Below, piece by piece: positions 3,486-32,936 of a stretch of 32,961 nucleotides of DNA. This stretch comes from a bacterium (GTDB taxonomy: Bacteria > Actinomycetota > Acidimicrobiia > Spongiisociales > JAENVV01). Every line of letters starts with the position of its first letter. Position 1 is the first letter of the stretch. The position numbers were made by a program, and so were the translations under genes. Below the pieces are notes generated by a model that saw only the letters and a program-made list of their open reading frames with translations, searched no databases and was not told the origin of the DNA. The stretch is from NCBI GenBank assembly GCA_024639975.1, contig JAHEFX010000013.1:1-32961 (forward strand). The letters are read 5' to 3'.

Positions 3486-3908
3486 TCAGCCGGCGATGAC
3501 GCGGACTTCGGCGATCTCGGCAGGCACCTGGCTGTGGGCCCGAACAAGATTGGAGTGCTGCTGCTGGCGGCGCAACTGCACGAGCATCGCGACGTACCAA
3601 GCGAGGAATGCGTCGACCAATAGGTGAGCAACGAGGACCCAGACACTGGACGTCAGCACCGCTGCCACGAGCGTCCCAAGAGCGAGCGTCCCGACGACGA
3701 CCAGCGCCCGACGGCGACGAGCGTTGGTGGCGGCGCGGGCCGCAGCTGCCTGCGGACCACTCTGGGAAATGGAAAGGCGAGCAGAGACCTCGTCGTAGCG
3801 CTGGGTGGACATGAGCGGCGCTTCGCGACGGGCTTCGATGAGCGACGGTAGGAGGAAGAGGCCCCACACGGCCGCGATCACAAGGACGAAGATGATGAGG
3901 TTGTTCAC
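3486..3908 (-). CDS. GlpR-like membrane protein (putative receptor of gephyrin-like MoeA)
   Basis: 140 aa. It has an N-terminal membrane segment (residues 3-21), a polar loop (about 25-67) containing MSTQRYDEVSARL and a run of arginines, then a hydrophobic hairpin (68-110) and a charged tail. In corynebacteria, the membrane receptor GlpR, encoded near the MoeA paralogue Glp, links Glp to the division machinery. Topology and position at the end of a moeA-moaC-moaB cluster match that family. The assignment rests on layout and pattern, not on a measured similarity. Start choice is uncertain. GTG 3908 overlaps the stop of a 30-codon mini-ORF by GTGA, while TTG 3944, with GAGG seven bases upstream, would add 12 residues. 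Confidence 0.6.
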   Translation of the reverse strand: MNNLIIFVLVIAAVWGLFLLPSLIEARREAPLMSTQRYDEVSARLSISQSGPQAAAARAATNARRRRALVVVGTLALGTLVAAVLTSSVWVLVAHLLVDAFLAWYVAMLVQLRRQQQHSNLVRAHSQVPAEIAEVRVIAG

Positions 3909-3997
3909 AAGAGTTCGAGAAGAGTGGACTTCAGGGGTGCCCAAGAATAGGCCTCAACTGCGCTGTAGACCAGCCCGCTTCGTGCCTTCTCTCGCAT
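3905..3997 (-). CDS. Possible 30-aa leader ORF ahead of the GlpR-like gene
   Basis: ATG 3997 is preceded by TAACGT and exactly seven bases, the leaderless-promoter spacing seen repeatedly in this window. The frame ends in TGA within GTGA, whose GTG is a candidate start of the next gene. The product would be a 30-residue peptide starting MREKARSGL. Third-position GC is clearly lower than in neighbouring genes, so it may be a regulatory leader or simply 5' UTR. No function is recognisable. Confidence 0.3.
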   Translation of the reverse strand: MREKARSGLVYSAVEAYSWAPLKSTLLELL

Positions 3998-20270: not shown

Positions 20271-20978
20271 ATGAACCTCGACGCCTTCGACCAGACCCTC
20301 GGCAGCCTTGCTGCGAGCCTCGGTGACCCGACGCGCCGCGGGATCTACGTTGCCGTCCGAGAAGCGCACGAGCCGCAGACGGCCGGGAGCCTGGCCGAGC
20401 GCTTCGACATCCACCCCAACGTGGCCCGCCACCACCTCGACCGGCTCGTCGACGATGGCTACCTGGAGGTGACGGAGCGGGTCGCGAGCACCGGTGCCGG
20501 TCGGCCGGCCAAGGGGTTCCGCGCCACCGACAAGGCGATCGAGCTCTCCCTGACTCCCAAGCGCGAGGACCTCCTCATCGACCTGCTCCTCGAGCTGGCC
20601 GATCGCCTGGGCGGGGACGGCGTGTCGGACATGGCCCGACAGGTGGGCCAGTCCTACGGCAGGAAGATGGCGAGTGAGCTCGAGGGAGACCTGGCGGAGG
20701 CCGTCGTCCTGGCGGTGGCGGGCGCCATGGGAACCATGGGCTTCGTGAACGACGCCGATGCCGAGGCCGGCATCATCCTGACGAGCCAGTGCCCGTTCGG
20801 GGAGACGGCCAATCGACACCCCGAGATCGTCTGCTCATTGGACCAGGGCATCGTGGATGGACTCCTCGAGGTCCTCGACCCCGAATACCACTCGCTCGTC
20901 GTCCCCCACGCCAAGGGCGCGACCTGCGAGACCAAGGTGGGGATCACGGCCCCCGTGGCGTTCGCCGGCCGGGCCTAG
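20271..20978 (+). CDS. SufR-like winged-HTH regulator with C-terminal cysteine cluster
   Basis: 235 aa. An ArsR/DeoR-like winged helix occupies residues 10-90 (SLGDPTRRGIYVAVREA, AERFDIHPNVARHHLDRLVDDGYL, GAGRPAKGFRAT). The C-terminal sensor carries Cys174 (SQCPFGETANRHPEIVC), Cys188, Cys219 (ATCETKVG) and His183. This spacing, CPf...HPE.C...C, matches SufR-type repressors, which hold a [4Fe-4S] cluster and control suf operons in cyanobacteria and mycobacteria. No suf genes are in the window, but the gene diverges from mrp, an Fe-S carrier, through overlapping -10 elements. The inferred role is repression of mrp and of itself when clusters are sufficient. It ends in CTAG shared with the next gene's stop. 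Confidence 0.8.
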   Translation: MNLDAFDQTLGSLAASLGDPTRRGIYVAVREAHEPQTAGSLAERFDIHPNVARHHLDRLVDDGYLEVTERVASTGAGRPAKGFRATDKAIELSLTPKREDLLIDLLLELADRLGGDGVSDMARQVGQSYGRKMASELEGDLAEAVVLAVAGAMGTMGFVNDADAEAGIILTSQCPFGETANRHPEIVCSLDQGIVDGLLEVLDPEYHSLVVPHAKGATCETKVGITAPVAFAGRA

Positions 20979-21982
20979 GCCCGATCGACCGACCGGGCGT
21001 ACTCGACCTGGTCGATGAGGAAGCTGCCCATCCGGGTCAGCACCGCTCGGGTCCCTGCGTCGCCGACTTCGGCGATCGCGTCGTCGGCAACCTCCAAGCG
21101 ATGTGCGGCCTCGTCGAGTGCGGCGGCGACATGCCCGCCCTCCCGACAAACCGAGATCACGGCGTCGATCGTGGCCCGGTCGTAGGGCCGGGGTGACTCG
21201 AGCAGCTCCCGGACCTTCGCTCCGTCGGGGCCCTCGAGGGCATGGAGGACGGGCAGCGTGAACTTCCCCTCACCGATGTCCGAGCCGGCGGGCTTGCCCA
21301 GGTACTCGTCGGAGGCGACGAGGTCGAGGGCGTCATCGGCGATCTGGAAGACGACACCCAGCTCCCAGGCCCAGGTACTGACGGCCTCGACCACGTCGTC
21401 GGGGCAGTCGGCAGCCATGGCGCCCAGTCGCGCCGACGTGCGGATGAGCGAGGCGGTCTTGCCCTCGATCACCTTGTAGTAGGCGTCCGGTCCATGGTTC
21501 GTGTCGAAATCGAGCTGCAGCTCACGGGTCTGGCCCTCGACGAGCTCTGCATAGGTCGCTGCGAGCAGCCGGACCGACTCCTGGCCGAGGTAGGTGGCAG
21601 CCACCTCGGAGGCTCGGGCCATGAGGTAGTCACCGGCGAGGATCGCCACGGTGTTGTCCCAGTTCGCGTTCGCGGACGCCGAGCCGCGGCGAGCGTCGGC
21701 TTCATCGATCACGTCGTCGTGATAGAGCGAGCCGACATGGATCAGCTCCACGGCAACACCCGCTTCGACCGGTCGCCGATCCGCCGGCGTTCCCAGCTCG
21801 GCGGCCATCTGGGCCAGCAACGGGCGGAACCGCTTGCCGCCGGCGCGGAGGAGGTGCTGGGTGATCTCGGTGAGGAACTCGTCTTCCGACGACGACGCCT
21901 CTTGGAGTCGTGCCTCGACGGTGAGCATCCGCTGCCAGACGTCGGGGACGTCGACGATGTCGGTGACGGAGGGAGCCTGCAT
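20975..21982 (-). CDS. Long-chain trans-polyprenyl diphosphate synthase
   Basis: 335 aa of the all-alpha isoprenyl synthase fold. Motifs: GGKRFRP (48-54), the first Asp-rich motif HDDVIDEADARRG (88-100), GDYL, GKTASLIR, and the second Asp-rich motif QIADDALDL (213-221), followed by GSDIGEGKFTLP. No bulky aromatic sits at the chain-limiting -4/-5 positions before DDxxD (GSLYHDD), which fits a long product such as a menaquinone side chain. It is not the cis-type enzyme that makes undecaprenyl diphosphate. ATG 21982 has no Shine-Dalgarno sequence; TACCAT lies nine bases upstream, and a perfect 11-bp inverted repeat lies just beyond. Its stop overlaps that of the SufR-like gene as CTAG. Confidence 0.9.
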   Translation of the reverse strand: MQAPSVTDIVDVPDVWQRMLTVEARLQEASSSEDEFLTEITQHLLRAGGKRFRPLLAQMAAELGTPADRRPVEAGVAVELIHVGSLYHDDVIDEADARRGSASANANWDNTVAILAGDYLMARASEVAATYLGQESVRLLAATYAELVEGQTRELQLDFDTNHGPDAYYKVIEGKTASLIRTSARLGAMAADCPDDVVEAVSTWAWELGVVFQIADDALDLVASDEYLGKPAGSDIGEGKFTLPVLHALEGPDGAKVRELLESPRPYDRATIDAVISVCREGGHVAAALDEAAHRLEVADDAIAEVGDAGTRAVLTRMGSFLIDQVEYARSVDRA

Positions 21983-22000
21983 GGGCGTCCGATGGTACCG

Positions 22001-22026
22001 GTGGCTGGGAGTTGGCTCCCAGCCAC
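22001..22026. repeat. Perfect 11-bp inverted repeat before the polyprenyl synthase gene
   Basis: GTGGCTGGGAG-TTGG-CTCCCAGCCAC. It lies 18 bp before ATG 21982 and covers the stretch where the spacer and -35 of a TACCAT promoter (21992-21997) would be. It could be an operator, a 5'-UTR attenuator if transcription comes from upstream, or a terminator for the 51-aa ORF. No T-run follows on either strand. Confidence 0.75.
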
Positions 22027-22031
22027 GGCGA

Positions 22032-22052
22032 AGGCCCCGCCGGGCGGGGCCT
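22032..22052. terminator. GC-rich hairpin downstream of the 51-aa ORF
   Basis: AGGCCCCGC-CGG-GCGGGGCCT, a 9-bp all-paired stem with a three-base loop. It begins 23 bp after the stop of the 51-aa minus-strand ORF. There is no U-tract, which is common in actinobacterial terminators. It is only five bases from the next inverted repeat, giving a tandem pair. Confidence 0.55.
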
Positions 22053-22075
22053 CCAGAAGGCGGGGGCGTTGGGTG

Positions 22076-22231
22076 TCAGACGCCGATGCGCCGGGACAAG
22101 CTCTGTTCCATTTCGCGCTGGAAGCCGTACCCCGAGGACAGTCCGGTCTCCAGGAGGAAGAGGTGGGCCGGCATCGAGCCGCGGCGGCGACGGTCGTTGC
22201 GGTACCGGCTGATGGAGGTGCTGATCGACAT
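22076..22231 (-). CDS. 51-aa arginine-rich small ORF, unknown
   Basis: ATG 22231 opens a 51-codon frame with almost uniformly G/C third positions. The peptide starts MSISTSISRYRNDRRRRGSM, continues with a short hydrophobic patch (PAHLFLLETGLSSGYGF) and ends with a basic tail. No family is recognised. The support is positional: a perfect TGTGA-N6-TCACA box and TANNNT-like hexamers sit 30-50 bp upstream, and two strong hairpins follow the stop. A ribosome-binding site is weak (GGGAA, six bases before ATG). It may be a small basic protein or the leader of the polyprenyl synthase gene. Confidence 0.5.
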   Translation of the reverse strand: MSISTSISRYRNDRRRRGSMPAHLFLLETGLSSGYGFQREMEQSLSRRIGV

Positions 22232-22261
22232 GGTGGGGTTCCCGGGAGAAGAGTTCGAGTA

Positions 22262-22277
22262 TGTGAACACGGTCACA
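22262..22277. promoter_or_regulatory. Perfect CRP/GlxR-type box TGTGA-N6-TCACA
   Basis: TGTGAACACGGTCACA is a 10-of-10 match to the cAMP receptor protein consensus shared by E. coli CRP, mycobacterial CRP and corynebacterial GlxR. The centre lies 38 bp upstream of ATG 22231 on the minus strand. It overlaps a TATTGT hexamer (minus strand, 22280-22275), a position suited to repression. An AATAC-GGA-GTATT inverted repeat directly adjoins it (22277-22289). Confidence 0.7.
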
Positions 22278-22331
22278 ATACGGAGTATTCCCCCCGACCG
22301 GAAGTTCCCGAGGCCGATTCTCAGCGACTTC

Positions 22332-23087
22332 TCACAGAGCTCGGATGAACCGGGCCGTGAGCGCGAGCACCGCCGTCGTGCTGTCGAACATGGGGTGGTG
22401 ACCCGCTCCGTCGAGCAGCAGTCCCTCTGCGCGGGGCCCGACGGCGTCCACGATCCAGTCGACGTGCTCATCGACCGCGTACCGATCGTCTCCGCCTTGG
22501 AGCACGAGCGTCGGATACACCGAAGCGACCTTCGGCCGGATGTCCCAGGCGGCGAACTCCTCTGAGGTCCAGATCCGGAGCCACTCACCGAACACGGCGT
22601 CCGGGTCGTCGTGGTGGCGGGCGAGTCGCTCCCGCAGGTCTCCTTCGGCGTACCACACCGCCATTCGGTCCATCTCGGACATCTGCTCGACGACGACGTG
22701 ACCCGCCACCGAGATCACACCCCGAAGGCCCGGAGCCGGACTCAGCCCGGCATTCAGTAGGGCGATGGTCGCGCCGTCCGAGTGACCCCACAGGATGTGG
22801 GGTCCGACGGCCATGGCCGACAAGAGCTCGGGCACGGCCTCGACGGCTTCCGGCTCGTGGTAGTCGAAAGGCCAGGGGGTGGGACGGGACTCGGACCGGC
22901 CGTACCCCCAGCGCGACCACGCAACGACATCGCACCCGGTGGCCTCGGACAACTGCTGGGGGAACTCCCGCCACAGGCTGAGGCACCCGAGTCCTTCGTG
23001 GAGGAGCACGATGGTCGGGCCGTCGCCAGCGCCCTCGACCTGCAGCACCTCGACTTCGTGGCCCGCTATCTCCACCCGTTCGATCAT
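22332..23087 (-). CDS. Alpha/beta-hydrolase
   Basis: 251 aa. The oxyanion strand LLHEGLGCLSLW (28-39) comes first. The nucleophile elbow is WGHSDGATIAL with Ser103. The acid is probably Asp200 or Asp201 (LQGGDDRYA), and the base His230 (DGAGHHPMF). A lid region lies between about 130 and 180. The substrate is unknown; the fold covers esterases, lipases and C-C hydrolases. The start is ATG 23087, where TATCGT and seven bases precede it, indicating a leaderless mRNA. The longer frame running back under bpa has no homology. It is divergent from bpa with a 43-bp gap. Confidence 0.88.
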   Translation of the reverse strand: MIERVEIAGHEVEVLQVEGAGDGPTIVLLHEGLGCLSLWREFPQQLSEATGCDVVAWSRWGYGRSESRPTPWPFDYHEPEAVEAVPELLSAMAVGPHILWGHSDGATIALLNAGLSPAPGLRGVISVAGHVVVEQMSEMDRMAVWYAEGDLRERLARHHDDPDAVFGEWLRIWTSEEFAAWDIRPKVASVYPTLVLQGGDDRYAVDEHVDWIVDAVGPRAEGLLLDGAGHHPMFDSTTAVLALTARFIRAL

Positions 23088-27428: not shown

Positions 27429-27860
27429 CTACGTCGCCTTGGTGTCCGTAGAGGCCAGACGGTCGGCCACGGTGGCGAGGATCTTCGTTGCGACCGAGGG
27501 CATCTCGGCCATCACGGTCCTGAATGCCCTGGGCTCCAAGGCCAGCACGACCGAAGGCTCGGCCATGACGACGGTGGCGTTGGCCGGTCGGTCCGTGACG
27601 AGACCGATCTCGCCAACGACGTCGCCCGGGCCGGACTCGGCGATCTTGCGGCCGTTGCGTCGGACGACGGCGCTGCCTTCGAGAATGATCGCCAGTTGGT
27701 GTCCCCACTTCCCCTCACAGACGAGCTCGGCACCCTCCCGGACACCCACCTCGTCGGAGATCCTGGCCAAGGCGGTCAACTCCTTCTTCGAGAGCTCCGA
27801 GAACAGTGGGACGTCCGAAAGCAATTCGACCTTGTCCGACTGTCGGGTGAGTACCGGCAT
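27429..27860 (-). CDS. Single-domain cyclic-nucleotide-binding-fold protein
   Basis: 143 aa. One cNMP-binding domain of the CRP type is present (LSDVPLFSELSKKELTALARI, then GHQLAIILEGSAVV, then GPGDVVGEIGLVTDRPANATV), with a short C-terminal helix and no DNA-binding HTH. In the phosphate-binding cassette the usual Arg (PRxATV) is replaced by Ala, so cAMP binding is uncertain. Stand-alone domains of this kind are common in actinobacteria and their function is unknown. ATG 27860 has GGGAG seven bases upstream. It is divergent from the TlpA-like gene. Confidence 0.85.
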   Translation of the reverse strand: MPVLTRQSDKVELLSDVPLFSELSKKELTALARISDEVGVREGAELVCEGKWGHQLAIILEGSAVVRRNGRKIAESGPGDVVGEIGLVTDRPANATVVMAEPSVVLALEPRAFRTVMAEMPSVATKILATVADRLASTDTKAT

Positions 27861-30178: not shown

Positions 30179-31374
30179 GAGAGGACCTCGGCTCGTCCGG
30201 GCAGGTATTCGAGCACGGTCCGCAGCGACCGGACGACCCGCGGGTCGTAGTCGTAGACCCCACCCCGGTGCAGCAGCTCCAGGGCCTCCAGGGGCGAAGC
30301 GCCCGCCTCGTGGATGGCTCGGTCGAAAGCCGACGCCACCTTGACGATCCTCGCCTCCATCGGGTGGTCGGGATCGTCTTCCTCGCCCGGTCGCCGGTAC
30401 GGGTGGTGGTGGACCCGGACGACGTTGGCCGCATCCTCGAGGTAGTCCGACTCCGCGATGATCTCCGACGACCACCGGGAGATGTCGTCCTCGGTGTAGC
30501 CCTGCTCGACGATGCTCGGCTCCGTGAGGGTGATCCGTCCGATGTCGTGCATGAGGGCTGCGTACTCGAGCACTTCGACCCGGTTCGGTTGCAGACCCAT
30601 CTCCTTGCCGATCCGCACCGCCAGGTCGGCGGTCCGGTCGGCGTGGCCCTCGAGCGCCAGGCCCCCGACCTCGGGTATGCGGGCAAGGGCAAGAATCGTC
30701 TGCCCGTAGGTCCGGCTCGTGTCGGCCCGACGGCGGAAGGACGAGAACGTGATGTGGAACGGGACGGCTCCGACCACGACGGCCACCCAGGGGTCGCTGT
30801 ACTGCCAGACGAGCCCGAACGCCGTGCCGGCGGCGATGAGCGAGCCGATGAGTGGCAGGTCCTTGAGCCCGACGCCGGCGACGTAGGCGATGCTCGTCGC
30901 CTGGGTGCGGCGGATCGAGAGGAGGCGGAAGAACACCTCCACCAAGAACCAGGCAATCGCCGCTCCCACCCAGACGAGGACGGCGGAGAGGTCGGTACCC
31001 AGCTCCAGCGGTACACCCGTGGCGTAGAGCACGGAGGCATAGGCGAGGGCCCCGATCGCCCGCCGGAGGTCGACCGGAACGGTGAGCGGCGCGGAGATGC
31101 CGAACACCCGATTGAGCCGCAAGGCAACGAAGCCGAGGGCAATCACCGAGATCGTCGCCTCGGGCGCCGGGAATAGGAACGGCACGGCTGCACCTATGAG
31201 CAGGACCAGGTCGAGCTTCGACCCGCCGGGGCCGCGCAGCTCGAAGAGGGGGGCCAACCCGAAGGCAACTGCGGTCAGGGCCACGAGCCACCACTGGATC
31301 CCGGCCGGGGCCATGACCACGCCGACCACGGCACCGGCAAGGATCGCCACGATGTCCCAGATGCGTTCGGTCAT
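30175..31374 (-). CDS. Membrane HD-domain protein, second gene of pair
   Basis: 399 aa. The N-terminal half has about seven membrane helices (to residue 210). The C-terminal half is an HD domain: GHADRTADLAVRIGKEMG, AALMHDIGRITL with His276 and Asp277, RVHHHPYRRPG (His322-324) and VASAFDRAI with Asp351. It resembles HD-GYP phosphodiesterases but lacks the GYP triad. Metal ligands of the HD fold look complete. Possible activity is on a cyclic dinucleotide or another phosphoester, but this is not provable by reading. ATG 31374 overlaps the upstream HD gene stop as ATGA. The two proteins share the layout but not close sequence, and may form a heteromer. Confidence 0.85.
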   Translation of the reverse strand: MTERIWDIVAILAGAVVGVVMAPAGIQWWLVALTAVAFGLAPLFELRGPGGSKLDLVLLIGAAVPFLFPAPEATISVIALGFVALRLNRVFGISAPLTVPVDLRRAIGALAYASVLYATGVPLELGTDLSAVLVWVGAAIAWFLVEVFFRLLSIRRTQATSIAYVAGVGLKDLPLIGSLIAAGTAFGLVWQYSDPWVAVVVGAVPFHITFSSFRRRADTSRTYGQTILALARIPEVGGLALEGHADRTADLAVRIGKEMGLQPNRVEVLEYAALMHDIGRITLTEPSIVEQGYTEDDISRWSSEIIAESDYLEDAANVVRVHHHPYRRPGEEDDPDHPMEARIVKVASAFDRAIHEAGASPLEALELLHRGGVYDYDPRVVRSLRTVLEYLPGRAEVLS

Positions 31375-32729
31375 GGCTGGTCCTTCACGGAGTCGGCAGG
31401 CAGACGGCCCTCGGCGATGGCCCTGGCGGTCTCTTCGTCGTGGACGTCCGGTGAGCCATAGGTCTCGCCCCGGGCCTCGATCGCGCCGATGAGTGCTTCG
31501 ACGGCCTCGGGCATGAACTGGGTACCCGCACAGCGGCGGAGCTCCTCGAACGCATAGCGCTGGCTGAGGGCCACTCGATAGGAGCGAGTGGTGGTGATGG
31601 CGTCGAAGGCATCCGCCACGGCGAGGATCGACGACTCGACGGACGGGACGACTCCCGTCTTCTCACCGTCGAAGAAGTGGTGGGTCCCGGCGGCGATCGC
31701 AACCATCGGCTGGAGGAACTCGACCTCGTCCAGGATCTCCTCGACGGCGTCGTCATGCCGGCGCATGATCGCCCACTCCTCCTCGGTGAGCCGGCCCTTC
31801 TTCTGGATGAGCTCCTTGGGCACGACGAGCTTGCCGATGTCATGGAGCAGGGCAGCCCAGTTGAGTGCCTCCAGCTTGGTGCCCCGCTGTCCCAGCTCCT
31901 CGCCGATGAGCGTGGCGAAGTGGGCGACCCGCTCGGCGTGGCCTCGGGTGTAGAGGTCCTTGGCCTCAAGGGCCTTGACGAACCCGGCCAGCGTCGCCTC
32001 GTGGGAGGTCCGCAGGAGACCGAACGAAGCGAAGGCCTGATGGCCGACCAGGAAGAGGATCATCATCAGGACGAGCAAGAGGGTGGACCCACCTGCCTCG
32101 ACGAAGGCAAACCCGAGGACCCCACCCACCAGCCCAACGAGCAGCGACGACGGGATGAGTGTGGCCATTCCCGACCAAAGGTTCGGGATCGAGCGGGAGT
32201 AGATGTACCGGACCGCCAGGTAGACCTGCCCGAGGTTGACCGCGAGGTTCGTGGCCGAGGCAAACGCGGCTGAGATGATCACCGCCCATGCCCCGGATCC
32301 CAGGAGCTCGATGCCGAACTCGATGGTCATGCCGACGGCGGCGCCTGTGAGGGCGAGCTGGCCGAAGTTCCAGATCGGCTCTTGGATCCGCTTCTCGCGG
32401 ACATCGACTTCCTGGATGGCCGAGCTGGCGGCGAGGATGGCGCAGACCAGGACGGCGGACCCGCCCGACAGGGCGGCCGAGACGCCGCCGGCGAGCAACA
32501 CCATGCCCGACGACGACGCGCTGAGGTTGTCGTTGACGAGGACGGATCGATAGCCGAGGTAGACGTTGGCGATCAGCAACGGGACCAGGAGGGCGAGCGA
32601 TGCGAGCTCCTCGGCCGTTGCGGCGGCCACCCAGAAGGTGGCCACGGACAAGACCACGTACAGGACGGTCACCACGATCTTGCGGCGACCCTGCCGGCCG
32701 TGGAACTCGGAGATCGGTCTACGTGGCAT
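31371..32729 (-). CDS. Membrane HD-GYP-like protein with degenerate GYP motif
   Basis: 452 aa. An N-terminal MASE-like region of about seven or eight helices (18-240) precedes an HD-GYP-type domain: LEAKDLYTRGHAERVAHFA, LLHDIGKLVVPKELIQKKGRLTEEEW with His296 and Asp297, His325, THHFFDG (His350-351) and ILAVADAFDAITTTRSYR. Canonical members read HHE..DG.GYP; here Glu is Phe and GYP is replaced by TGV. The domain may still bind metal, while c-di-GMP specificity is doubtful. ATG 32729 has GGAGGG ten bases upstream. It heads a coupled pair of HD genes, preceded by a 26-aa leader peptide and a CRP-like box. Confidence 0.88.
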   Translation of the reverse strand: MPRRPISEFHGRQGRRKIVVTVLYVVLSVATFWVAAATAEELASLALLVPLLIANVYLGYRSVLVNDNLSASSSGMVLLAGGVSAALSGGSAVLVCAILAASSAIQEVDVREKRIQEPIWNFGQLALTGAAVGMTIEFGIELLGSGAWAVIISAAFASATNLAVNLGQVYLAVRYIYSRSIPNLWSGMATLIPSSLLVGLVGGVLGFAFVEAGGSTLLLVLMMILFLVGHQAFASFGLLRTSHEATLAGFVKALEAKDLYTRGHAERVAHFATLIGEELGQRGTKLEALNWAALLHDIGKLVVPKELIQKKGRLTEEEWAIMRRHDDAVEEILDEVEFLQPMVAIAAGTHHFFDGEKTGVVPSVESSILAVADAFDAITTTRSYRVALSQRYAFEELRRCAGTQFMPEAVEALIGAIEARGETYGSPDVHDEETARAIAEGRLPADSVKDQP

Positions 32730-32868: not shown

Positions 32869-32885
32869 CTGTTTCGGGATTTCGT

Positions 32886-32901
32886 GGTGACGCTGTTCAC
32901 A
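32886..32901. promoter_or_regulatory. CRP-like box GGTGA-N6-TCACA
   Basis: GGTGACGCTGTTCACA matches TGTGA-N6-TCACA at nine of ten positions. It is nested with a wider inverted repeat CGTGGTG-N10-CACCACG (32883-32906). The centre is about 40 bp upstream of the 26-aa ORF start, almost the same distance as the perfect box at 22262 from its small ORF. It could also serve a plus-strand gene starting at 32937. Confidence 0.5.
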
Positions 32902-32936
32902 CCACGTTCCGATCCGCTCCGCTGCATAGTGCAGGG

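Follow-up and report, generated by a model that had tools for sequence, protein, structure and literature searches.

Rex is a known repressor that senses the balance of NADH and NAD+ in the cell. In the organisms in which it has been characterised, it represses by binding to an operator termed ROP, from which it is released by NADH (PMC5355995). The ROPs of Streptomyces, exemplified by those of nuoA1, atpI, cydA1, rex and wblE in Streptomyces avermitilis, share an 18-bp inverted repeat, TTGTGAANNNNTTCACAA, and the nuoA1 copy, TTGTGACCTGCTTCACAT, is a Rex site footprinted with DNase (PMC5355995). The palindrome TGTGA-N6-TCACA is common to CRP and Rex, and the CRP label is a tempting misreading of such a site. 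Here we describe a copy of this palindrome in an uncultured member of the Acidimicrobiia, a group in which it appears to mark an NADH-sensing Rex regulon; correcting the label yields for these uncultured bacteria a testable redox regulon that would include a small, as yet unexplained orphan gene.

The palindrome occurs in a single perfect copy in the window, by which we mean the whole stretch of 32,961 nucleotides that was analysed (Table 1). It matches all ten core positions, as the earlier note on this DNA had stated in taking it for a CRP/GlxR operator, and the rarity claimed there for such a match also holds: at a GC content of 67.6%, arithmetic from base composition gives an expectation of about 0.008 perfect copies per window. 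The 2.35-Mb assembly to which the window belongs contains five perfect copies against about 0.5 expected, and the reversed pattern is absent from it. When up to two mismatches are tolerated, the window holds five matches versus 7.4 in shuffled sequence, which is chance level, so only the perfect match is meaningful there. It is found about 54 nt past the stop codon of a hydrolase-like gene on the same strand (whose matches to hydrolase families are weak and all below cut-off), 30 nt from the ATG of a 51-codon ORF, and 279 nt from the start of a gene for polyprenyl-diphosphate synthase, also on the same strand. A palindrome that arose by chance in an intergenic gap would be in keeping with the lack of conservation of both box and ORF described below, but the low expected number, the position just before a coding-like frame and the fit to a regulator encoded in the genome make this extremely improbable, and we consider it very probable that the palindrome is a genuine site of regulation.

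Table 1. Features of the locus, in window coordinates.
Feature	Position	Strand	Basis or remark
Palindrome TGTGAACACGGTCACA	22262-22277		0 mismatches to TGTGA-N6-TCACA
Predicted Rex operator (ROP), 18-bp form TTGTGACCGTGTTCACAT	22261..22278	minus	contains TGTGA-N6-TCACA; 2 mismatches to TTGTGAANNNNTTCACAA
Possible -10 hexamer TATTGT, weak	22275..22280	minus	sequence; overlaps operator; -35 not recognisable
51-codon ORF, basic product MSISTSISRYRNDRRRRGSMPAHLFLLETGLSSGYGFQREMEQSLSRRIGV	22076..22231	minus	ATG...TGA; coding-like codon score
GC-rich hairpin AGGCCCCGCC..GGCGGGGCC	22030..22054	minus	fold; ~22 nt past small-ORF stop
Second hairpin GTGGCTGGGAGCCAACTCCCAGCCAC	21997..22029	minus	fold; ends ~15 nt before synthase start
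Polyprenyl-diphosphate synthase	20975..21982	minus	PF00348 1.4e-62; next gene downstream of small ORF
Alpha/beta-hydrolase-like gene	22332..23087	minus	ORF list (longer frame there); upstream of operator

As to which regulator binds, the palindrome is most likely a Rex site, as predicted from its sequence, and not a CRP site. Its distance from the Streptomyces repeat lies within the 2-3 mismatches tolerated in an ROP, and it is identical to the nuoA1 operator at 14 of 14 fixed positions (PMC5355995). ROP-like sites with up to three mismatches number three in the window versus 0.13 expected, and those with up to two number eight in its genome versus none for the reversed pattern. The other two in the window (32885-32902 and 3893-3910) have three mismatches each, and the former lies about 155 nt upstream of the start of a predicted minus-strand gene (31374-32729). 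All five perfect TGTGAN6TCACA sites of the assembly are ROP-like and extend towards TTGTGAANNNNTTCACAA; at the flanking positions that discriminate between ROP and CRP, 13 of 16 agree with ROP in the other four sites and two of four in the window's own, so that the Rex assignment here leans on the remaining sites and on the match to the S. avermitilis operator.

Rex itself is encoded in the assembly (contig C104, position 2833) by a gene whose product matches PF06971 at 2.6e-14, NF003992 with 240.8 bits (cut-off 226) and solved Rex structures in the PDB at 7.2e-40. A CRP-family protein, defined as one that joins a cNMP-binding domain to HTH_Crp, was not recovered from this assembly, which is 84% complete, so that a CRP could be missing from it: no HTH_Crp match rose above cut-off, and none of the three sub-threshold HTH matches stands beside one of the ten cNMP-binding domains. 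The window codes on its minus strand for a stand-alone cyclic-nucleotide-binding domain (27429-27854; PF00027, 1.3e-14) with no accompanying HTH match.

Related sites at redox and respiratory genes occur both in the same genome and in its relatives. Within the genome, other ROP sites precede genes for a sulfide:quinone oxidoreductase (SQR), a pyruvate phosphate dikinase and a conserved membrane protein, and a further one precedes a possible quinone-oxidoreductase-like gene that is cut by the end of its contig. Across a set of 30 genomes, made up of the one that contains the window and 29 others of its order, a count summed by hand at no more than one mismatch gave 83 sites versus 4 for the reversed control. 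In the relatives these adjoin genes for an F0F1-ATPase subunit, WhiB, SQR and molybdopterin-oxidoreductase-like proteins, some of them identified by eye, and in three genomes (G009, G023 and G029) rex itself; the ATP-synthase, WhiB, SQR and rex neighbours resemble the known Rex regulon of Streptomyces, S. avermitilis included, whereas sigma-factor-like genes, seen by eye beside ROP sites in two genomes (L106, L110), fall outside the set of targets read for Rex in S. avermitilis. Three of the relatives (G011, G018 and G024) lack any cNMP-binding domain, yet they carry two, one and three ROP sites, respectively, from which it follows that the motif goes with Rex in this group. That a CRP/GlxR-type regulator binds the box is therefore very unlikely: the ten matching core positions and the CRP-type proteins of some genomes of the same family (e.g., G003 and G005) favour it, but the want of an HTH_Crp match above cut-off in this incomplete assembly, the extension of all this genome's sites towards ROP and the persistence of such sites in relatives without any cNMP-binding protein go against it. 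On regulator content and flanking sequence we rejected the CRP/GlxR assignment, and the regulator named in the earlier note is probably wrong.

Some other members of the putative regulon deserve mention. The gene for a protein of about 240 residues (MAKRLQTLGVILALFGLGFF..., with an N-terminal hydrophobic stretch) is preceded by an ROP in four genomes, among them the window's own with two (L091:2283-3005 on contig C81; also L099, L104 and L112); the protein matches nothing in Pfam or NCBIfam and would be a conserved component of the order's Rex regulon. The sulfide:quinone oxidoreductase gene (L089:1340-2566 on contig C65, minus strand), which has an ROP, fits the "type III, selenoprotein subtype" model with 584 bits, and its ROP adjoins another palindrome, ATACCCCTAGGGGTA, which we take to resemble operators of the CsoR/CstR type. 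Near rex in the window's genome no ROP with up to three mismatches was found; TTGTGCACCGGCTCACGT, with four mismatches, lies just before the rex start (L085 near 2785, contig C104) and is perhaps a degenerate autoregulatory site.

Concerning promoter elements, the TATTGT hexamer that was said to overlap the operator is indeed there. A promoter scan returned no sigma-70-type promoter, and the list of hexamers holds no convincing -35. It is plausible that the palindrome is a repressor operator at a promoter, so of the repression by cAMP-CRP suggested earlier the repression may stand, but the assignment to CRP/GlxR does not, since the sites fit the Rex repeat.

The 51-codon frame has the composition of a gene. 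Its G/C-rich third positions, already remarked upon in the earlier note, are borne out by a GC content of 0.55, 0.53 and 0.92 at the three codon positions, and its codon score of 0.28 compares with 0.37 (sd 0.11) in the window's genuine genes and with 0.16 at the off-frame 95th percentile. None of 3000 open shuffles reached that score, which ranks near the top among the window's 71 ATG ORFs of 40-80 codons; three-base periodicity is strong, codon preference is like that of the genome's genes, and the Shine-Dalgarno sequence is weak. The peptide belongs to no family in Pfam, NCBIfam or PHROGs, and tblastn gave no credible homologue in 59 genomes of the order, in class and phylum samples (395 and 397 genomes), or in searches of GTDB contigs, viral contigs and plasmids; weak matches (E 0.005-0.02), in unrelated frames, were read as chance frames. 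Small ORFs behind other ROP sites that look coding include WhiB and ATP-synthase subunits, and none resembles MSISTSISRYRNDRRRRGSMPAHLFLLETGLSSGYGFQREMEQSLSRRIGV. Structure prediction without an alignment gave three short helices at a mean pLDDT of 68 and a pTM of 0.29, a model too weak for a structure search.

Conservation was also sought by position: among 109 regions upstream of the synthase gene, the window's own included, both small ORF and box are absent from all 108 others. As every other genome in the sample belongs to a different genus, conservation cannot separate a young or fast-evolving gene from a non-functional frame. The earlier note had proposed a conserved small ORF as a possible new regulator and had named lack of conservation of frame or box in close relatives as what would count against it; by that standard the proposal fails in the relatives sampled. 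It is improbable that the operator is real and the ORF untranslated, with a small RNA or a mere leader as its product: the lack of a homologue, the weak ribosome-binding site and a transcript-sized unit with a terminator-type hairpin would suit such a product, but the strong periodicity and gene-like codon preference would not. An Rfam search of the window returned just a tRNA, located elsewhere in it.

Both hairpins that had been described after the ORF's stop codon were found, and both are strong (z -3.9 against shuffles); neither has a U tract. The pattern AGGCCCCGCC..GGCGGGGCC occurs three times in the genome, and in the two cases elsewhere it immediately follows a stop codon, which suggests that the first hairpin is probably a terminator. 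Coding-like codon statistics together with a terminator-type hairpin make it likely that the ORF is a separate gene, and we regard it as probably a real monocistronic protein gene, on the strength of these sequence features.

Beyond the hairpins lies the synthase gene. Its best NCBIfam matches, to models of long-chain prenyl synthases, stay under the cut-offs, and among named public genomes those that match it most closely are mainly metagenome assemblies of Acidimicrobiia. In the relatives that were read out, the gene beyond the synthase's upstream region encodes a Clp ATPase. The place of the synthase gene on the same strand means that the small ORF is not, as had been claimed, the only gene the box could serve, and the synthase is an alternative target by read-through. 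The main rival explanation accordingly takes the Rex site as real and the synthase, which would make the side chain of a quinone, as its meaningful target, with the small ORF in the leader and the hairpins partly read through. No other promoter is evident for the synthase, Rex controls respiratory genes, and in S. avermitilis, where the search for Rex sites reached 350 bp upstream of genes, the distance to the start is 288 bp for one bound target; but a terminator-type hairpin separates operator and synthase, an ROP is missing from the region before the synthase in all 108 other loci, and the small ORF by itself has the statistics of a coding frame, so this explanation is unlikely.

Overall, the reading that we prefer, at a probability of roughly 0.6, is that the palindrome is a predicted Rex operator fronting a small monocistronic gene that is derepressed by NADH; the ORF itself is most likely lineage-specific, repressed by Rex and expressed when NADH is high. 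Rex bound to NAD+ would occupy the box over the probable -10 and start region and keep the promoter off, and a rise in NADH, as under oxygen limitation, would release Rex and allow the 51-residue basic protein to be made, with transcription mostly stopping at the hairpin behind the stop codon. For this site, repression and release by NADH are inferred from what is established for Rex elsewhere (PMC5355995). It is doubtful, if conceivable, that within the Rex regulon the protein serves as an effector or small regulator, specific to the lineage and induced by NADH, perhaps acting on the adjacent quinone or prenyl metabolism.

Set against known systems, the control would be of a known kind and the product an orphan; the small gene probably adds one member to a regulon that is already known. 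With CRP/GlxR operators (TGTGAN6TCACA) the site shares the ten core positions, but the flanks of this genome's sites follow ROP, no CRP-type HTH was recovered, and sites occur here in genomes without cNMP-binding proteins. Redox-controlled small proteins of bacteria, as a general class, offer the same combination of a short basic ORF, a redox operator and a hairpin of its own, although MSISTSISRYRNDRRRRGSMPAHLFLLETGLSSGYGFQREMEQSLSRRIGV is unrelated in sequence to any Pfam, NCBIfam or PHROGs family. Closest are the Streptomyces ROPs: the predicted site in the window shares their 18-bp inverted repeat (with the fixed positions of nuoA1), overlaps what may be a promoter and belongs to a genome that carries a Rex gene, and the sites of the relatives adjoin ATP-synthase, WhiB and rex genes; the difference is that the gene next to the window's site is a 51-codon orphan ORF and not a known respiratory gene.
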